From Nitrososphaerota archaeon (GTDB lineage Archaea > Thermoproteota > Nitrososphaeria > Nitrososphaerales > Nitrosopumilaceae): a stretch of DNA of 64,000 bases. Below are positions 8,933-34,959 of this stretch, piece after piece. Made by a program: the position numbers and the translations under genes. The notes beneath the pieces are model-generated. The model had not been told where the DNA came from. It did no database searches and worked only from the letters and a program-made list of their open reading frames with translations. How positions within the stretch are numbered: position 1 is the first letter of the stretch; each line of letters begins with the position of its first letter. The stretch is taken from assembly GCA_021325595.1 (NCBI GenBank), contig JAJPGX010000018.1:1-64000 (forward strand), written 5' to 3'.

Positions 8933-9748
8933 ATGTCAGAGGATCTCACAAAGGTTGTAGAAGAATTGATAAGTTCTGGCAAGGGAGATCTAACAAGACT
9001 ACAAAACATTTTGGAACTATTACGCAGAGGAACGCCTATTAGTGATTCTGATCAAGACTATATTGAATCAATATCAGGTAAGCATGAGTTTACTGCAAAT
9101 GATTTGCCCGTAGAGGTTCCAACTGATATTCCTGTCATACCAAAAGATTATTCTAGCGATAATCCTGGCTTTATGTCAGAAATTCCCACAGACACACCTG
9201 TTGAAACGCCAGATAATGATAACGCAGAATCAAATACACGTGATAAAAAAACAAATACCAAAAAAAGAGTAATTTCAATTGCAGTTATTGCTGCAATAAT
9301 CATCATATCATATACCGTACTTGATGTCTATGCAGTCAACTCATTACAGTTTAGGCCCCATCGGGGAACACAAGCAATCATATCCGATACCGAGATTTCA
9401 ATCCAATCTGATGCTTGTAATCCATCATACTTTCCTGTCTCATTTAGTAAATATCAGATAACAGCATTTTACAAATCAGAAGTAATAGAGACTGCCACAA
9501 TTGGAGGAGGAACACTTTCTCCAAAATCGGCATCAACCTTTGATGGAATATTTGCGCTAAACAAGGATGTAATTACAAAATATCAAAATACAAGCGAGCA
9601 ATTTAATGCATCAAATGCACAGATAACCACAAAGGTATATGCCCCAATTTTTGGATTTATCCCTTATGCAGTCGAAAAAAATTATGGCGCAGATCAATTC
9701 CAAAAAATAATTAAAAACGGACCTCCTGAATTGTACAGTTGCCAATAG
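8933..9748 (+). CDS. Single-pass membrane protein with SHOCT-like N-terminus and LEA14-like outer domain
   Basis: I place the start at the ATG at 8933; upstream codons in frame overlap the divergent gene and encode no conserved sequence. Residues 1-50 form a helical module (DLTRLQNILELLRRGTPIS) clearly similar to the first 50 residues of the protein at 18071. A Pro/Asp/Thr-rich linker (52-105) leads to a basic stretch, a membrane helix (about 112-132) and an outside domain whose pattern (CNPSYFPVSFSKYQITAFYK) resembles LEA14/WHy domains, which occur in desiccation- and stress-related proteins. Function unknown. It converges on the thioesterase gene, whose stop begins at the next base. Confidence 0.72.
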   Translation: MSEDLTKVVEELISSGKGDLTRLQNILELLRRGTPISDSDQDYIESISGKHEFTANDLPVEVPTDIPVIPKDYSSDNPGFMSEIPTDTPVETPDNDNAESNTRDKKTNTKKRVISIAVIAAIIIISYTVLDVYAVNSLQFRPHRGTQAIISDTEISIQSDACNPSYFPVSFSKYQITAFYKSEVIETATIGGGTLSPKSASTFDGIFALNKDVITKYQNTSEQFNASNAQITTKVYAPIFGFIPYAVEKNYGADQFQKIIKNGPPELYSCQ

Positions 9749-17259: not shown

Positions 17260-18069
17260 ATGACTTCAAGCTCTGATCTAAACAAGATAGTTCTTGAGGG
17301 TATAACATATGCCAAGCTTGAAAAACATAAAAATGCAATTTCATTTTTTGACAAGGTCTTAAAACAAGATCCCAACCATGTCGATGCGTTGTATAATAAA
17401 GGAGTGTCATTACTAAAGATTGAAAAAAAGAAAGAGGCCATGACTTGTTTTGAAAAAATTCTAGAGACACAACCAAATCATGTTGAATCACTTACAAATC
17501 TAGGAAACTTGATCTCAGAGTCAGGTCAGTTTGCAAAGGCTTTAATGTATTATGATAGAGCTCTTCAAGTTGATCCAGATTACACTCCAGCGTCATATAA
17601 CAAGGCCATTTCAACAATACGACTTGAGAGATTTGATGATGCGATGCAATGTCTAAACAAGGTACTAGACAAAGAACCTGATAACATATCTGCTATTTAC
17701 TACAAGGGAATTGTCCTTGGCAAACTAAAAAATCATGAACTAGCACTTGCTTGTCTTGATATAGTCTTAGAAAAAGAACCAGAAAATTATGAAGCAATGT
17801 TTTACAAAGCAAATGAATTGTCAGAGATTGAAAGACACCAAGAAGCAATTACTATATTTGATACCCTACTAAAGCAATATCCAAAAAATGGGACAATAAT
17901 TTATGCAAAGGCAAGATGTAAGGCAGGACTTGGGGAAAATAATGATGCATTGGTTCTACTGGCCCAGGCAGTCTCATACTATGGAAAAACAATCAAGACA
18001 TGGGCTGTGAAGGACCCAATATTCGATAAGCTAAAAGAGGATGGCAGATTCAAGACTATTGTAAAGTGA
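17260..18069 (+). CDS. TPR-repeat protein
   Basis: A soluble scaffold of 269 residues built of about seven tetratricopeptide repeats of 34 residues. Examples are the segment around HKNAISFFDKVLKQDPNHVD (24-43) and those around FAKALMYYDRALQVDPDY and FDDAMQCLNKVLDKEPDN. Such arrays bind partner proteins. A basic, less regular end (about 235-269) caps the array. Its stop lies 1 base before the start of the gene at 18071, so the two are almost certainly one transcript. They stand directly upstream of the tubulin-like gene on the same strand. No enzyme domain is present. Confidence 0.88.
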   Translation: MTSSSDLNKIVLEGITYAKLEKHKNAISFFDKVLKQDPNHVDALYNKGVSLLKIEKKKEAMTCFEKILETQPNHVESLTNLGNLISESGQFAKALMYYDRALQVDPDYTPASYNKAISTIRLERFDDAMQCLNKVLDKEPDNISAIYYKGIVLGKLKNHELALACLDIVLEKEPENYEAMFYKANELSEIERHQEAITIFDTLLKQYPKNGTIIYAKARCKAGLGENNDALVLLAQAVSYYGKTIKTWAVKDPIFDKLKEDGRFKTIVK

Positions 18070-18070
18070 C

Positions 18071-18370
18071 ATGTCAGAGGAGATACTAAAAAAATTAAAG
18101 CATTTGATTGCGGCAGGTATTGGAGACACCAGAAGGTTGCGTGATATGCTAGACACAGTAAAACGGGGGGAACCCCTTGTTCTTTCAGATTTTAAGTATA
18201 TTGAAGAATTGACAACAGTCAAAACAGAACAACAGGATAAATCCGCATCACCTACACCTAAACTTGCCAATATGGATGAATCACTTAGTCTTTTAAGGAT
18301 AAGGCTTGCAGAAGGTAGTATTACAATAGAAGAATTTCGTGAACTGAAAAAGGCAATAACTGAAGACTAA
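18071..18370 (+). CDS. Small helical protein with SHOCT-like C-terminus
   Basis: A protein of 99 residues. The first 50 residues (ILKKLKHLIAAGIGDTRRLR onward, then LVLSDFKYIEEL) match the N-terminal module of the membrane protein at 8933. A polar linker leads to a C-terminal SHOCT-like hairpin (SLLRIRLAEGSITIEEFREL), a short oligomerisation or anchoring motif often found at protein ends. It is tightly coupled to the TPR gene upstream, with one base between stop and start. The function is unknown. Sharing its module with a membrane protein suggests a common partner (inference). Confidence 0.7.
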   Translation: MSEEILKKLKHLIAAGIGDTRRLRDMLDTVKRGEPLVLSDFKYIEELTTVKTEQQDKSASPTPKLANMDESLSLLRIRLAEGSITIEEFRELKKAITED

Positions 18371-18533
18371 GAATGATTCATGCTTAAATCTTAAATTCCA
18401 AAAAGCGAATTTGGTTTGTAGGTAAAACTTTGCAAACAGTACAATTTCATGTCTATAACAATCAAGTACAGACTTCACAATCTTATACTGGCTGGTTAAA
18501 GTGCAGAGTTTCGTTTTCATATAGTGATTAGAG

Positions 18534-19925
18534 TTGTCAAAGCATACCCCGCTTCCACCAGCCCCAGTACTTATGACATCTTTTGGCCATTGTGGCATAG
18601 GTTTGGGTGCCGAAGCATATAGAAGATTATTGCTTGATGTTGGTGCAGACCCACTAAAGCCTGTTTTAAAGGGAGAAAAAGAAGAGGCCCAAGTGCTGAA
18701 AAGATACGGTAGTACCATTTTGCGTTTTCCAAATTCGTATGGAGGAAGTGAGATACCTCTCATACCAAGAGCATTACTCATAGACCTGGATCCAAGAGCT
18801 GCAAACCTCATTTTACAATCATATCCCGACTTGTTTGCTCTCAGAGACAAGCATGTAATACATGGAGCGGGAGGAGCTGCAAGAAATTGGGCAGAGGGAA
18901 GAACTAGATTTATCAAAGAAGTTAGCACGAAGTATGACTTGCAAAAACAACTTTCAGGACTTTCACCAGAACCAGTAAGAGGATTTACAATCCCATTTGC
19001 CATGGGTGGCGGAACCGGTAGCTCATTTGCAAGTGCATTTATGCAATACATAAAAAAAGATACAAAAGAACACGCAACGATTGCTTCTTTTGGATTGCTA
19101 CCAGAATTTGGATGGGATCCTGTTATACTTGAAGCTGCTGCAATTAATATTGTAATGAATTTAGAACACCAAATTAAATACAGCGATTGTTCAATACTGT
19201 TTTCCAACAAGACGTTGCGACAGCTTGCTCACAAACATGAAAAAAGACTAGATAAGATGCAATCAATTATTGATGATTTGCCAAAAGAACACGAAGTTGG
19301 ATGGAAAGACTACAGAGGAATGAATCTAATTGCAGCAAATGCAATTTCCATGTTTATTGCGTCATTTGCAAGAGAAACAGAGTGGGACATGTCAAACTAT
19401 AGAACATGGCTTGCCACAAAGAGGCCGAGGTTTGCAATACCATGGGTAATTCCAATCATGCCAGAGGAAAGACAGTGGAGTAGTGATTTGTTGCCAGGAT
19501 CCACCAAGACAAATACAATGGATGCAATTGTAGAACACATCAACAAAAAAGAAGATGCCGTACTGTTTGACATTGATGAAAATGATGTAAGAGACAAGGG
19601 AGGTCCAAAGGACTCTTGTTGTGCCTTGGTCAAGATCAAAGGCGAATTCGATGTTAAGGAGAGAGAGATTCTTAAGAATATGATAAAAGACAGATTCCAT
19701 ATTGAAGAAGCTAGAATGATCTTCATCAAGATACCAATATTAGAAAGTGAACAAGCAAATGTTACAATCCTCGTAAACACCAAAGCAATAGGACCAAAGA
19801 TATTAGAAATTGCAAGCGAGGCAGAAGCGTCATGGGATGCGTACAAGGAAGAATATGGCAAATGGGGATTGACTACAGAGGAATTCAAACAGAGCCTTAT
19901 GGATGTCGTCCACGAATTTAGCTAG
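18534..19925 (+). CDS. Tubulin-like protein (tubulin/FtsZ superfamily)
   Basis: A 463-residue protein that follows tubulin landmarks in order: the nucleotide loop FGHCGIGLGAEAYRRLL (17-33), PRALLIDLDP (78-87) at the place of tubulin's PRA-(V/I)-DLEP, GAGGAARNWAEG (111-122) where tubulin has GAGNNWAKGH, and the phosphate-binding signature GGGTGSS (158-164). A C-terminal alpha/beta domain follows. The T7 loop that completes GTP hydrolysis in a filament is not clearly recognised; the segment RGMNLIAANAI lacks the expected aspartate. The start is TTG. It is followed after 3 bases by a coiled-coil gene. It could polymerise as a cytoskeletal filament (inference). It is not the FtsZ of this genome, which lies at 34006. 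Confidence 0.82.
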   Translation: MSKHTPLPPAPVLMTSFGHCGIGLGAEAYRRLLLDVGADPLKPVLKGEKEEAQVLKRYGSTILRFPNSYGGSEIPLIPRALLIDLDPRAANLILQSYPDLFALRDKHVIHGAGGAARNWAEGRTRFIKEVSTKYDLQKQLSGLSPEPVRGFTIPFAMGGGTGSSFASAFMQYIKKDTKEHATIASFGLLPEFGWDPVILEAAAINIVMNLEHQIKYSDCSILFSNKTLRQLAHKHEKRLDKMQSIIDDLPKEHEVGWKDYRGMNLIAANAISMFIASFARETEWDMSNYRTWLATKRPRFAIPWVIPIMPEERQWSSDLLPGSTKTNTMDAIVEHINKKEDAVLFDIDENDVRDKGGPKDSCCALVKIKGEFDVKEREILKNMIKDRFHIEEARMIFIKIPILESEQANVTILVNTKAIGPKILEIASEAEASWDAYKEEYGKWGLTTEEFKQSLMDVVHEFS

Positions 19926-19928
19926 GGC

Positions 19929-20474
19929 ATGTCAGACTTTACATTTTTAGAAGAAGTTGCAAACCGCATTAAGACAAACAGGAATCAATTAAAAGATGTA
20001 GAAGACGAGCTTGCAACAGTAAATTTTAGGATTCACGAAATTCCATTGAAGAGTTCAACAGAATCTACTTTTGCAAAGATGATAGGCGAAGAATATCATG
20101 ATGCCACAGGAGATCTTGAAAAGGCAAGAGAGAGATTAAGTTTACAAAAAGAAGATTTGTCAAATAAGATAAAAGAAGACATTTCTACATTCATTACTGA
20201 ATTCACATCACCAGATCTTGTAATACCACTAGAGCCAAATCCAAAAATTGCTGACGGTAACACCACTTTCAAATATAGAGGAGGCGCTGTCTTCAGAAAT
20301 GTGCTTGACATACTAAGTGAATTACTTGGTTTGAGTGCACCAATACTTGTAAAAGATGTAATGTTTTCAGCTTCTGAGATAATCATAAAAGTAAAAGATG
20401 AATACGAAGCCAAACAAAAATTTCTAAACAGTATGCATGAAGTACAAAAGACGCTTTCAATTAAAAGAAAATAA
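19929..20474 (+). CDS. Coiled-coil protein, partner candidate of the tubulin-like protein
   Basis: A soluble protein of 181 residues. Two long helices with heptad patterns (about 3-35 and 58-95, for example KARERLSLQKEDLSNKIKED) form a coiled coil; a small alpha/beta domain follows (about 100-181, with GGAVFRNVLDILSELLGL). No known family is visible. It starts 3 bases after the tubulin-like stop, so the two must be co-expressed, and a structural or regulatory partnership is a reasonable inference. There is no membrane helix. Confidence 0.68.
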   Translation: MSDFTFLEEVANRIKTNRNQLKDVEDELATVNFRIHEIPLKSSTESTFAKMIGEEYHDATGDLEKARERLSLQKEDLSNKIKEDISTFITEFTSPDLVIPLEPNPKIADGNTTFKYRGGAVFRNVLDILSELLGLSAPILVKDVMFSASEIIIKVKDEYEAKQKFLNSMHEVQKTLSIKRK

Positions 20475-34005: not shown

Positions 34006-34959
34006 ATGGAGTTTAAAATGCAAGATCCGGTACTAGTTGTTGGCCTAGGAGGAGCCGGTTGCAGACTTGCATTGGAAGCCAAGGAAAAACTAGGTTGCGA
34101 TTGTCTTTTGATTAGTAATGATGCAAGAGACTTGAACCATGATGTATCCAAGATTCTGATAAATACAACTCCCATTCTTAATCCATCCACCTATCTTATT
34201 AGAGGAGTATCTTTTGGTGCCAAAGAATCCCTAGAATCAAAAATAGACAAATACTCTACTATAATTATAATAGCAAATCTTGCTGGAAAATCAGGTGCAG
34301 CTTTATCGCCAGTCGTTTCCCATATTTCAAAAGAAATGGGAAAAAATGTACTTTCTTTTGGCATTATGCCCTTCAAGTTTGAGAAAGACAAAATATTTTT
34401 CTCAGGAGTTTCACTAAAGAGATTGAAAGCTAGTTCAGATTGCACTGTAATCATAGATAATGATGCGTTACTTGATAGTAATCCAGACCTAACTCCAGAT
34501 TCTTGTAATTTGATTACAAACTCAGCGTTGCTTCAAGTAATATCCACCCTTAGAGACTCGTCAATACCATTACAGACCAACATACTTTCCACAAGCAAGG
34601 ATATTACAGATGTTGAAACGTCGTTAAGAGACTCTATCAAAATGCTCTATGAAGATGCGTCACCAAATGGAATCAAGAGTGCATTAATGTATGTAGTGGG
34701 CGGGAACAAAGTTCCAATAGGGATTTTGAATTCAATGGTAAATACAATAAGTGGGATTTTTGGTGATGATAGCACACGAGTAAGCTTGTCAGTAACTGGG
34801 GGAGACAGTTCAAAAGTAGTATTGCTGACTTCGATAGAAGGTGAAACACGTTTTGATAAATATGATCCACTTGGGTTCATTCCAAAAGAAAATGTACTAG
34901 ACTGGGAAGAACCAGATGCGAGTGTAAAAATTGATCTTGAATTAGAACAGATAGAATAA
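34006..34959 (+). CDS. ftsZ: Divergent FtsZ homologue
   Basis: A protein of 317 residues in the FtsZ family by its N-terminal nucleotide-binding start VVGLGGAGCRLALEAKEKLG (11-30), length and helix/strand order. The phosphate-binding signature GGGTGTGAAP is replaced by AGKSGAALSP (93-102), so nucleotide binding or hydrolysis should be altered. Thaumarchaea are known to have such divergent FtsZ proteins beside a Cdv/ESCRT-type division system, which probably does the main work. The C-terminal part keeps the FtsZ second domain but ends in an acidic tail. It stands at the end of the methylthiotransferase strand, with 74 bases between, and converges on L31e. Confidence 0.85.
   Translation: MEFKMQDPVLVVGLGGAGCRLALEAKEKLGCDCLLISNDARDLNHDVSKILINTTPILNPSTYLIRGVSFGAKESLESKIDKYSTIIIIANLAGKSGAALSPVVSHISKEMGKNVLSFGIMPFKFEKDKIFFSGVSLKRLKASSDCTVIIDNDALLDSNPDLTPDSCNLITNSALLQVISTLRDSSIPLQTNILSTSKDITDVETSLRDSIKMLYEDASPNGIKSALMYVVGGNKVPIGILNSMVNTISGIFGDDSTRVSLSVTGGDSSKVVLLTSIEGETRFDKYDPLGFIPKENVLDWEEPDASVKIDLELEQIE

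Follow-up and report, generated by a model that had tools for sequence, protein, structure and literature searches.

Which of the genes around an archaeal relative of tubulin work with it? The question is raised by a block of four genes in the window, i.e., the whole stretch of 64,000 nucleotides analyzed here, which is contig C48 of a 1.64 Mb host genome that is 99% complete. An initial annotation had read the block as a possible single system, in which a tubulin-type filament protein is served by a TPR scaffold, a small SHOCT-like factor and a coiled-coil partner. The four same-strand open reading frames, separated by gaps of 1, 163 and 3 bases in order, were present as it had described them (Table 1). 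Median dN/dS values, taken over 8–11 close pairs, showed purifying selection on all four genes (0.077, 0.135, 0.025 and 0.058 for genes 1–4). Among seven local genes, gene 3 evolved slowest and gene 4 second slowest, followed by TruD (0.073), the TPR gene, an aminopeptidase (0.080), the NHE antiporter (0.083) and the SHOCT-like gene. Together, the open reading frames, domain matches and purifying selection indicate that the four genes are real and that the match to tubulin motifs did not arise by chance. The closest named relatives of gene 3 were from Ca. Nitrosotalea devanaterra, Ca. Nitrosotalea bavarica and related Thaumarchaeota bins (86–92% identity); judged by sequence, the host genome, that of an ammonia-oxidizing archaeon, groups with Ca. 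Nitrosotalea.

Table 1. Features of the locus and the second tubulin/FtsZ superfamily gene, in window positions.
Feature	Position	Strand	Remarks
Gene 1, TPR protein, 269 aa	17260-18069	+	Many TPR Pfam models, best 7e-34
Gene 2, SHOCT-like small protein, 99 aa	18071-18370	+	Pfam match below cut-off
Probable promoter region of the pair	18390-18533	+	Conserved blocks CTTAAATCTTAAAT, GTCTATAACAATCAAG, GGTTAAAG within the 163-base gap; 15-locus alignment
16-codon ORF, MSITIKYRLHNLILAG then stop	18449-18499	+	Overlaps the conserved element upstream of artubulin
Gene 3, artubulin, 463 aa, TTG start	18534-19925	+	PF00091 at residues 15-231, then family-specific C-terminal half
Gene 4, coiled-coil partner, 181 aa	19929-20474	+	No Pfam family; directly 3' of artubulin in the loci examined
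FtsZ-like protein	34006-34959	+	Second of two PF00091 genes in the genome

The tubulin relative and its GTP motifs

Gene 3 matched the Tubulin/FtsZ GTPase domain (Pfam PF00091) above cut-off, with an E-value of 6e-17. Its best solved relatives were Asgard tubulins (4e-18), followed by gamma-tubulin (about 1e-12), and the best 60 solved chains were all tubulins, whether a single sequence or a profile of 22 sequences was searched. The same search with the FtsZ-like protein of the genome returned FtsZ matches exclusively. On these matches, gene 3 is nearer to tubulin than to FtsZ, as the initial annotation had claimed, and the tubulin-type motifs that it had pointed out are present. The similarity to tubulin stopped at approximately residue 235; that is, the Asgard proteins AtubA/AtubB and OdinTubulin (PMC13394414) are the best solved matches in the GTPase domain only. 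The C-terminal half had no detectable match among solved chains, and the AlphaFold2 model of the protein, built on a shallow alignment, reached a pLDDT of 39.

The full-length identity of gene 3 to artubulins was 76–92% within family f1, including 76–81% to those of groups g4 and g2, and 53–60% in families f10 and f13. By this measure, gene 3 is an artubulin, a family that already has a name. Artubulins were first described from Ca. Nitrosoarchaeum by Yutin and Koonin in 2012 (PMC3349469), and that of Ca. Nitrosotenuis was reported in 2013 (PMC3835317). Both are tubulin-like rather than FtsZ-like and have a separate FtsZ-like gene alongside, as in our genome. Therefore, a tubulin relative was correctly recognized at this locus, but it belongs to a known family, for which the two papers demonstrate no function. 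Later papers kept the placement of artubulins open (PMC9871819, PMC13394414); according to the 2026 paper (PMC13394414), it was never fully resolved.

Artubulins had been called rare in archaea. This holds for a phylum-wide draw, in which 22 of 398 genomes carried one, all in f1, the family of the window, but not within the order, where 69 of 300 genomes did. In a class-level sample of 300 genomes, convincing matches were confined to the same order. A seventieth match within the order (G021), a fragment with 30% identity inside a frame of 904 residues, was rejected as spurious. A scan of IMG/VR yielded two tubulin-like fragments with 25–28% identity on viral contigs (L121 and L122). The Pfam model for ammonia monooxygenase matched nowhere and was therefore uninformative on f10 and f13.

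The T1–T4 motifs (GHxGxGxG, DLDPRxAN, GGAARNWAEG and GGGTG) were invariant in 22 of 22 diverse artubulins, indicating that artubulin likely binds GTP. The T7 region read EWDMSN in all 22 copies. In alpha-tubulin, the corresponding sequence is NVDLTE. In FtsZ, it is NVDFAD (PMC3684127). In a hand alignment to these two sequences, used because the low-pLDDT artubulin model was unusable, artubulin appears to keep the T7 Asp and to carry Asn288, invariant in the 22 copies, three residues after it, at the usual place of the catalytic acid. Where GGGTG is usual, the FtsZ-like protein of the genome has the degenerate motif AGKSGAA, whereas artubulin has an intact GGGTGSS; no other member of the tubulin/FtsZ superfamily in the genome has kept its GTP motif intact. 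In its degenerate motif, the FtsZ-like protein resembles the Nitrosopumilus FtsZ Nmar_1262, which has AGKAGSA and was reported as non-polymerizing in yeast (PMC3684127).

Neighbors that stay and neighbors that change

The same 300 genomes, drawn from the order, were searched for both artubulin and gene 4, and gene 4 was present in 69 of the 69 genomes with artubulin. In the junctions that we read, from families f1, f3, f10 and f13, the partner gene began 2–20 bases 3' of artubulin, with both genes on one strand; in a few cases, mechanical ORF calling took a start codon further upstream and placed the start earlier. In G296, the two genes are on different contigs. G002 carries artubulin twice, on separate contigs, and a partner gene of its own lies directly 3' of each copy. 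The gene trees of artubulin and partner share their main clades, i.e., f10, f13, g1, g5, g4, and g2 together with L035 and L036. The pair is kept across the four families while the upstream genes are unrelated between lineages. The fourth gene, which had been annotated as a coiled-coil protein, proved to be a conserved companion of artubulin. As the same coiled-coil gene lies next to artubulin in related genomes, the two very probably work as a functional pair, and the gaps of 2–20 bases indicate that they probably share a transcript.

The lasting unit of the block consists of its last two genes only. The NHE antiporter, TPR and SHOCT-like genes lie upstream of the pair in Nitrosotalea and its nearest kin (g1, g5, L031 and L033), and the SHOCT-like gene lies beside artubulin without the TPR gene in L034. 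Elsewhere, the gene upstream of the pair is CdvB/Snf7 in g4, an NreA-like gene (assigned by motif) in g2, an ABC transporter in f13, and a ribosomal or other translation gene in f10. In 14 f10 loci (f10 loci include, e.g., L082 and L085), the partner is followed by a third gene on the same strand, about 312 aa long, and in 13 artubulin is faced by a von Willebrand A-like gene; these two may be f10-specific associates.

These arrangements bear on the proposal that a TPR scaffold, a SHOCT-like factor, an artubulin filament and a coiled-coil partner act together as a four-gene cytoskeletal system. Within Nitrosotalea, the order TPR–SHOCT–artubulin–partner persists at loci whose NHE antiporter and Vgb/TruD neighbors have moved, and a loose link is therefore possible there. 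The Prosthecobacter tubulins BtubA/BtubB are also prokaryotic tubulin relatives near a TPR gene, that of bKLC (PMC3349469). However, they represent another branch of the family with two tubulins instead of one, and the TPR neighbor of artubulin is not a lasting one. Neither the TPR nor the SHOCT-like gene was found beside artubulin in g2, g4, f3, f10 and f13. The SHOCT match of gene 2 itself (E 0.0051, 17.0 bits) was below the Pfam gathering cut-off of 27. Gene 2 is the fastest evolving of the four and a lineage-specific neighbor, possibly an accessory. Its N-terminal module has four further copies in the genome, one in the window (8933-9076 (+), in a 339-residue frame) and others on C5, C45 and C4 of the host assembly (G000), which also speaks against a dedicated role in such a system.

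In addition, the block is split by the 163-base gap, which contains a conserved promoter-like element. The conservation of its blocks in 15 loci suggests that the pair has its own promoter. The 16-codon ORF that overlaps this element is open in most Nitrosotalea-type loci and interrupted in several others, and was rejected as a leader peptide on that account. The DNA core of the element, GTCTAnAACnATCAAG, also occurs in g2 and in copy a of G002, even where the ORF is interrupted; conservation of the DNA itself is therefore a likelier reading of the element than a peptide.

Natural losses separate the neighbors further. In the Nitrosotalea-type genome G183, the NHE antiporter and TPR genes are intact, the SHOCT-like gene and artubulin are gone, and the partner is reduced to its last 40 residues with stops. 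In the g4-related genome G218, CdvB and the next downstream gene are intact, artubulin is gone, and the partner is a short broken piece. The partner is likewise broken and artubulin absent in G013 (f13), on a contig of 4.3 kb, and G279, a genome that is 89% complete, has neither gene. The losses in G183, G218 and G013 indicate that artubulin and its partner tend to go together and that the TPR and CdvB genes are independent of them. The joint disappearance of the SHOCT-like gene and artubulin from G183 agrees with a four-gene system, whereas the survival of the TPR gene there does not. The order of the four genes, which was to be checked in other thaumarchaea, therefore does not extend beyond Nitrosotalea and its closest kin, and the system that it had suggested is very unlikely; the TPR and SHOCT-like genes stand apart from the artubulin pair or are, at most, loosely linked to it.

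Two genomes depart from this pattern of loss. In G235 (L074) and G294 (L075), artubulin is reduced to its C-terminal 167–234 residues and the partner frame is still open, which speaks against the pair; the shortened artubulins may reflect early decay or an assembly join. The piece in L075 resembles g4 (92% identity) rather than g7, which suggests a transfer or an assembly join.

The CdvB neighbor raises another possibility, proposed in 2012, namely that artubulin acts with ESCRT-III (CdvB) in cell division; the coiled-coil protein would then be an adaptor between them. CdvB/Snf7 lies directly upstream of artubulin in all six g4 loci, with a dCMP deaminase (by motif) beyond it, matching the published Nitrosoarchaeum surroundings (PMC3349469), and we infer from this gene context that g4 is Nitrosoarchaeum. 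Snf7-type proteins were also present in most of the artubulin genomes tested. However, CdvB adjoins artubulin only in g4 and is absent at the window locus, unlike in the published Nitrosoarchaeum arrangement, and it outlived artubulin and the partner in G218. No profile similarity linked the partner to CdvB, and a relationship between them was rejected (hhalign probability 0.4%). The Nitrosotenuis artubulin is not linked to CdvB (PMC3835317). As the linkage is not general, the CdvB neighbor is no defining feature of the artubulin family, and an action through CdvB with the partner as adaptor is quite unlikely. That is, with the linkage confined to one genus in our sample and CdvB outliving artubulin, the earlier idea is narrowed.

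The coiled-coil partner and its possible role

The best AlphaFold2 model of the partner had a mean pLDDT of 86 (61–75 in the other four models) and consisted of a helical hairpin (residues 4–37 and 59–92) and a C-terminal alpha/beta domain (about residues 100–181). A Foldseek search of this model against the PDB gave no match at E 0.001, which counts against the pair reading. Coiled-coil and repeat chains, of which many were designed, were the only matches to the partner profile. Five f2 loci (L101–L105) carry a full-length partner without artubulin, beside radical SAM and acyl-CoA synthetase-like genes. In f8, a short protein corresponding to the C-terminal domain alone occurs without artubulin (L109:7617-8093 and 10 other loci), flanked in several genomes by genes for RNase P Rpr2 and Nep1. 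These occurrences also speak against an exclusive pairing; going by them, the partner family either predates its pairing with artubulin or extends beyond it, and artubulin may have recruited a C-terminal domain whose role is more general.

The nearest rival to a filament with a binding partner is a chaperone role, in which the coiled-coil protein would assist the folding or assembly of artubulin from outside the filament, comparable to eukaryotic tubulin cofactors. A small protein with a helical hairpin, whose gene lies immediately 3' of that of its client, would suit such a role, as would the C-terminal domain standing alone in f8, in some neighborhoods with Rpr2 and Nep1. The fold of the partner also resembled that of tubulin cofactor A very weakly (E 0.86), but this was not significant, and the full-length partner of f2 has no artubulin to serve. 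We consider the chaperone role unlikely.

As a whole, the observations are probably, though by no means certainly, best explained by artubulin and a dedicated coiled-coil partner as a two-gene unit, with a GTP-binding filament protein and a protein that binds it. Artubulin would most likely assemble into protofilaments, and the partner would bind artubulin and control its stability, assembly or bundling. If the T7 alignment is right, the Asn at the place of the acid would slow GTP hydrolysis between like subunits; filaments of artubulin only should therefore hydrolyze slowly, and their turnover may depend on the partner. A filament with a controlling partner is a tentative reading of these sequences, somewhat short of an even chance.

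The literature that we found did not discuss the partner. It may be meant in PMC3349469, where an unnamed 'conserved hypothetical protein' appears in the legend to Figure 2B. Coiled-coil genes surround archaeal tubulin-like genes in general (PMC9871819). The accessible parts of the Ca. Nitrosoarchaeum and Ca. Nitrosotenuis papers do not discuss a constant 3' coiled-coil partner, joint loss or occurrence in f3, f10 and f13. The artubulin family was already known; what these comparisons add is a conserved two-gene unit of artubulin and its coiled-coil partner, which we did not find described.

Since 2012, artubulin has been under discussion as possibly related to the ancestor of tubulin in eukaryotes. 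It is conceivable, though doubtful, that the pair forms a two-part archaeal cytoskeleton, in which a single dedicated protein binds and switches a slowly hydrolyzing artubulin filament, and that it does so in widespread thaumarchaea in which the FtsZ-like protein no longer has a GTP site. Artubulin and its partner would then be an independent counterpart of tubulin and a microtubule-associated protein. An adjacent partner that tends to be lost together with artubulin provides a specific handle on this family, i.e., a two-protein system open to expression, reconstitution and imaging.
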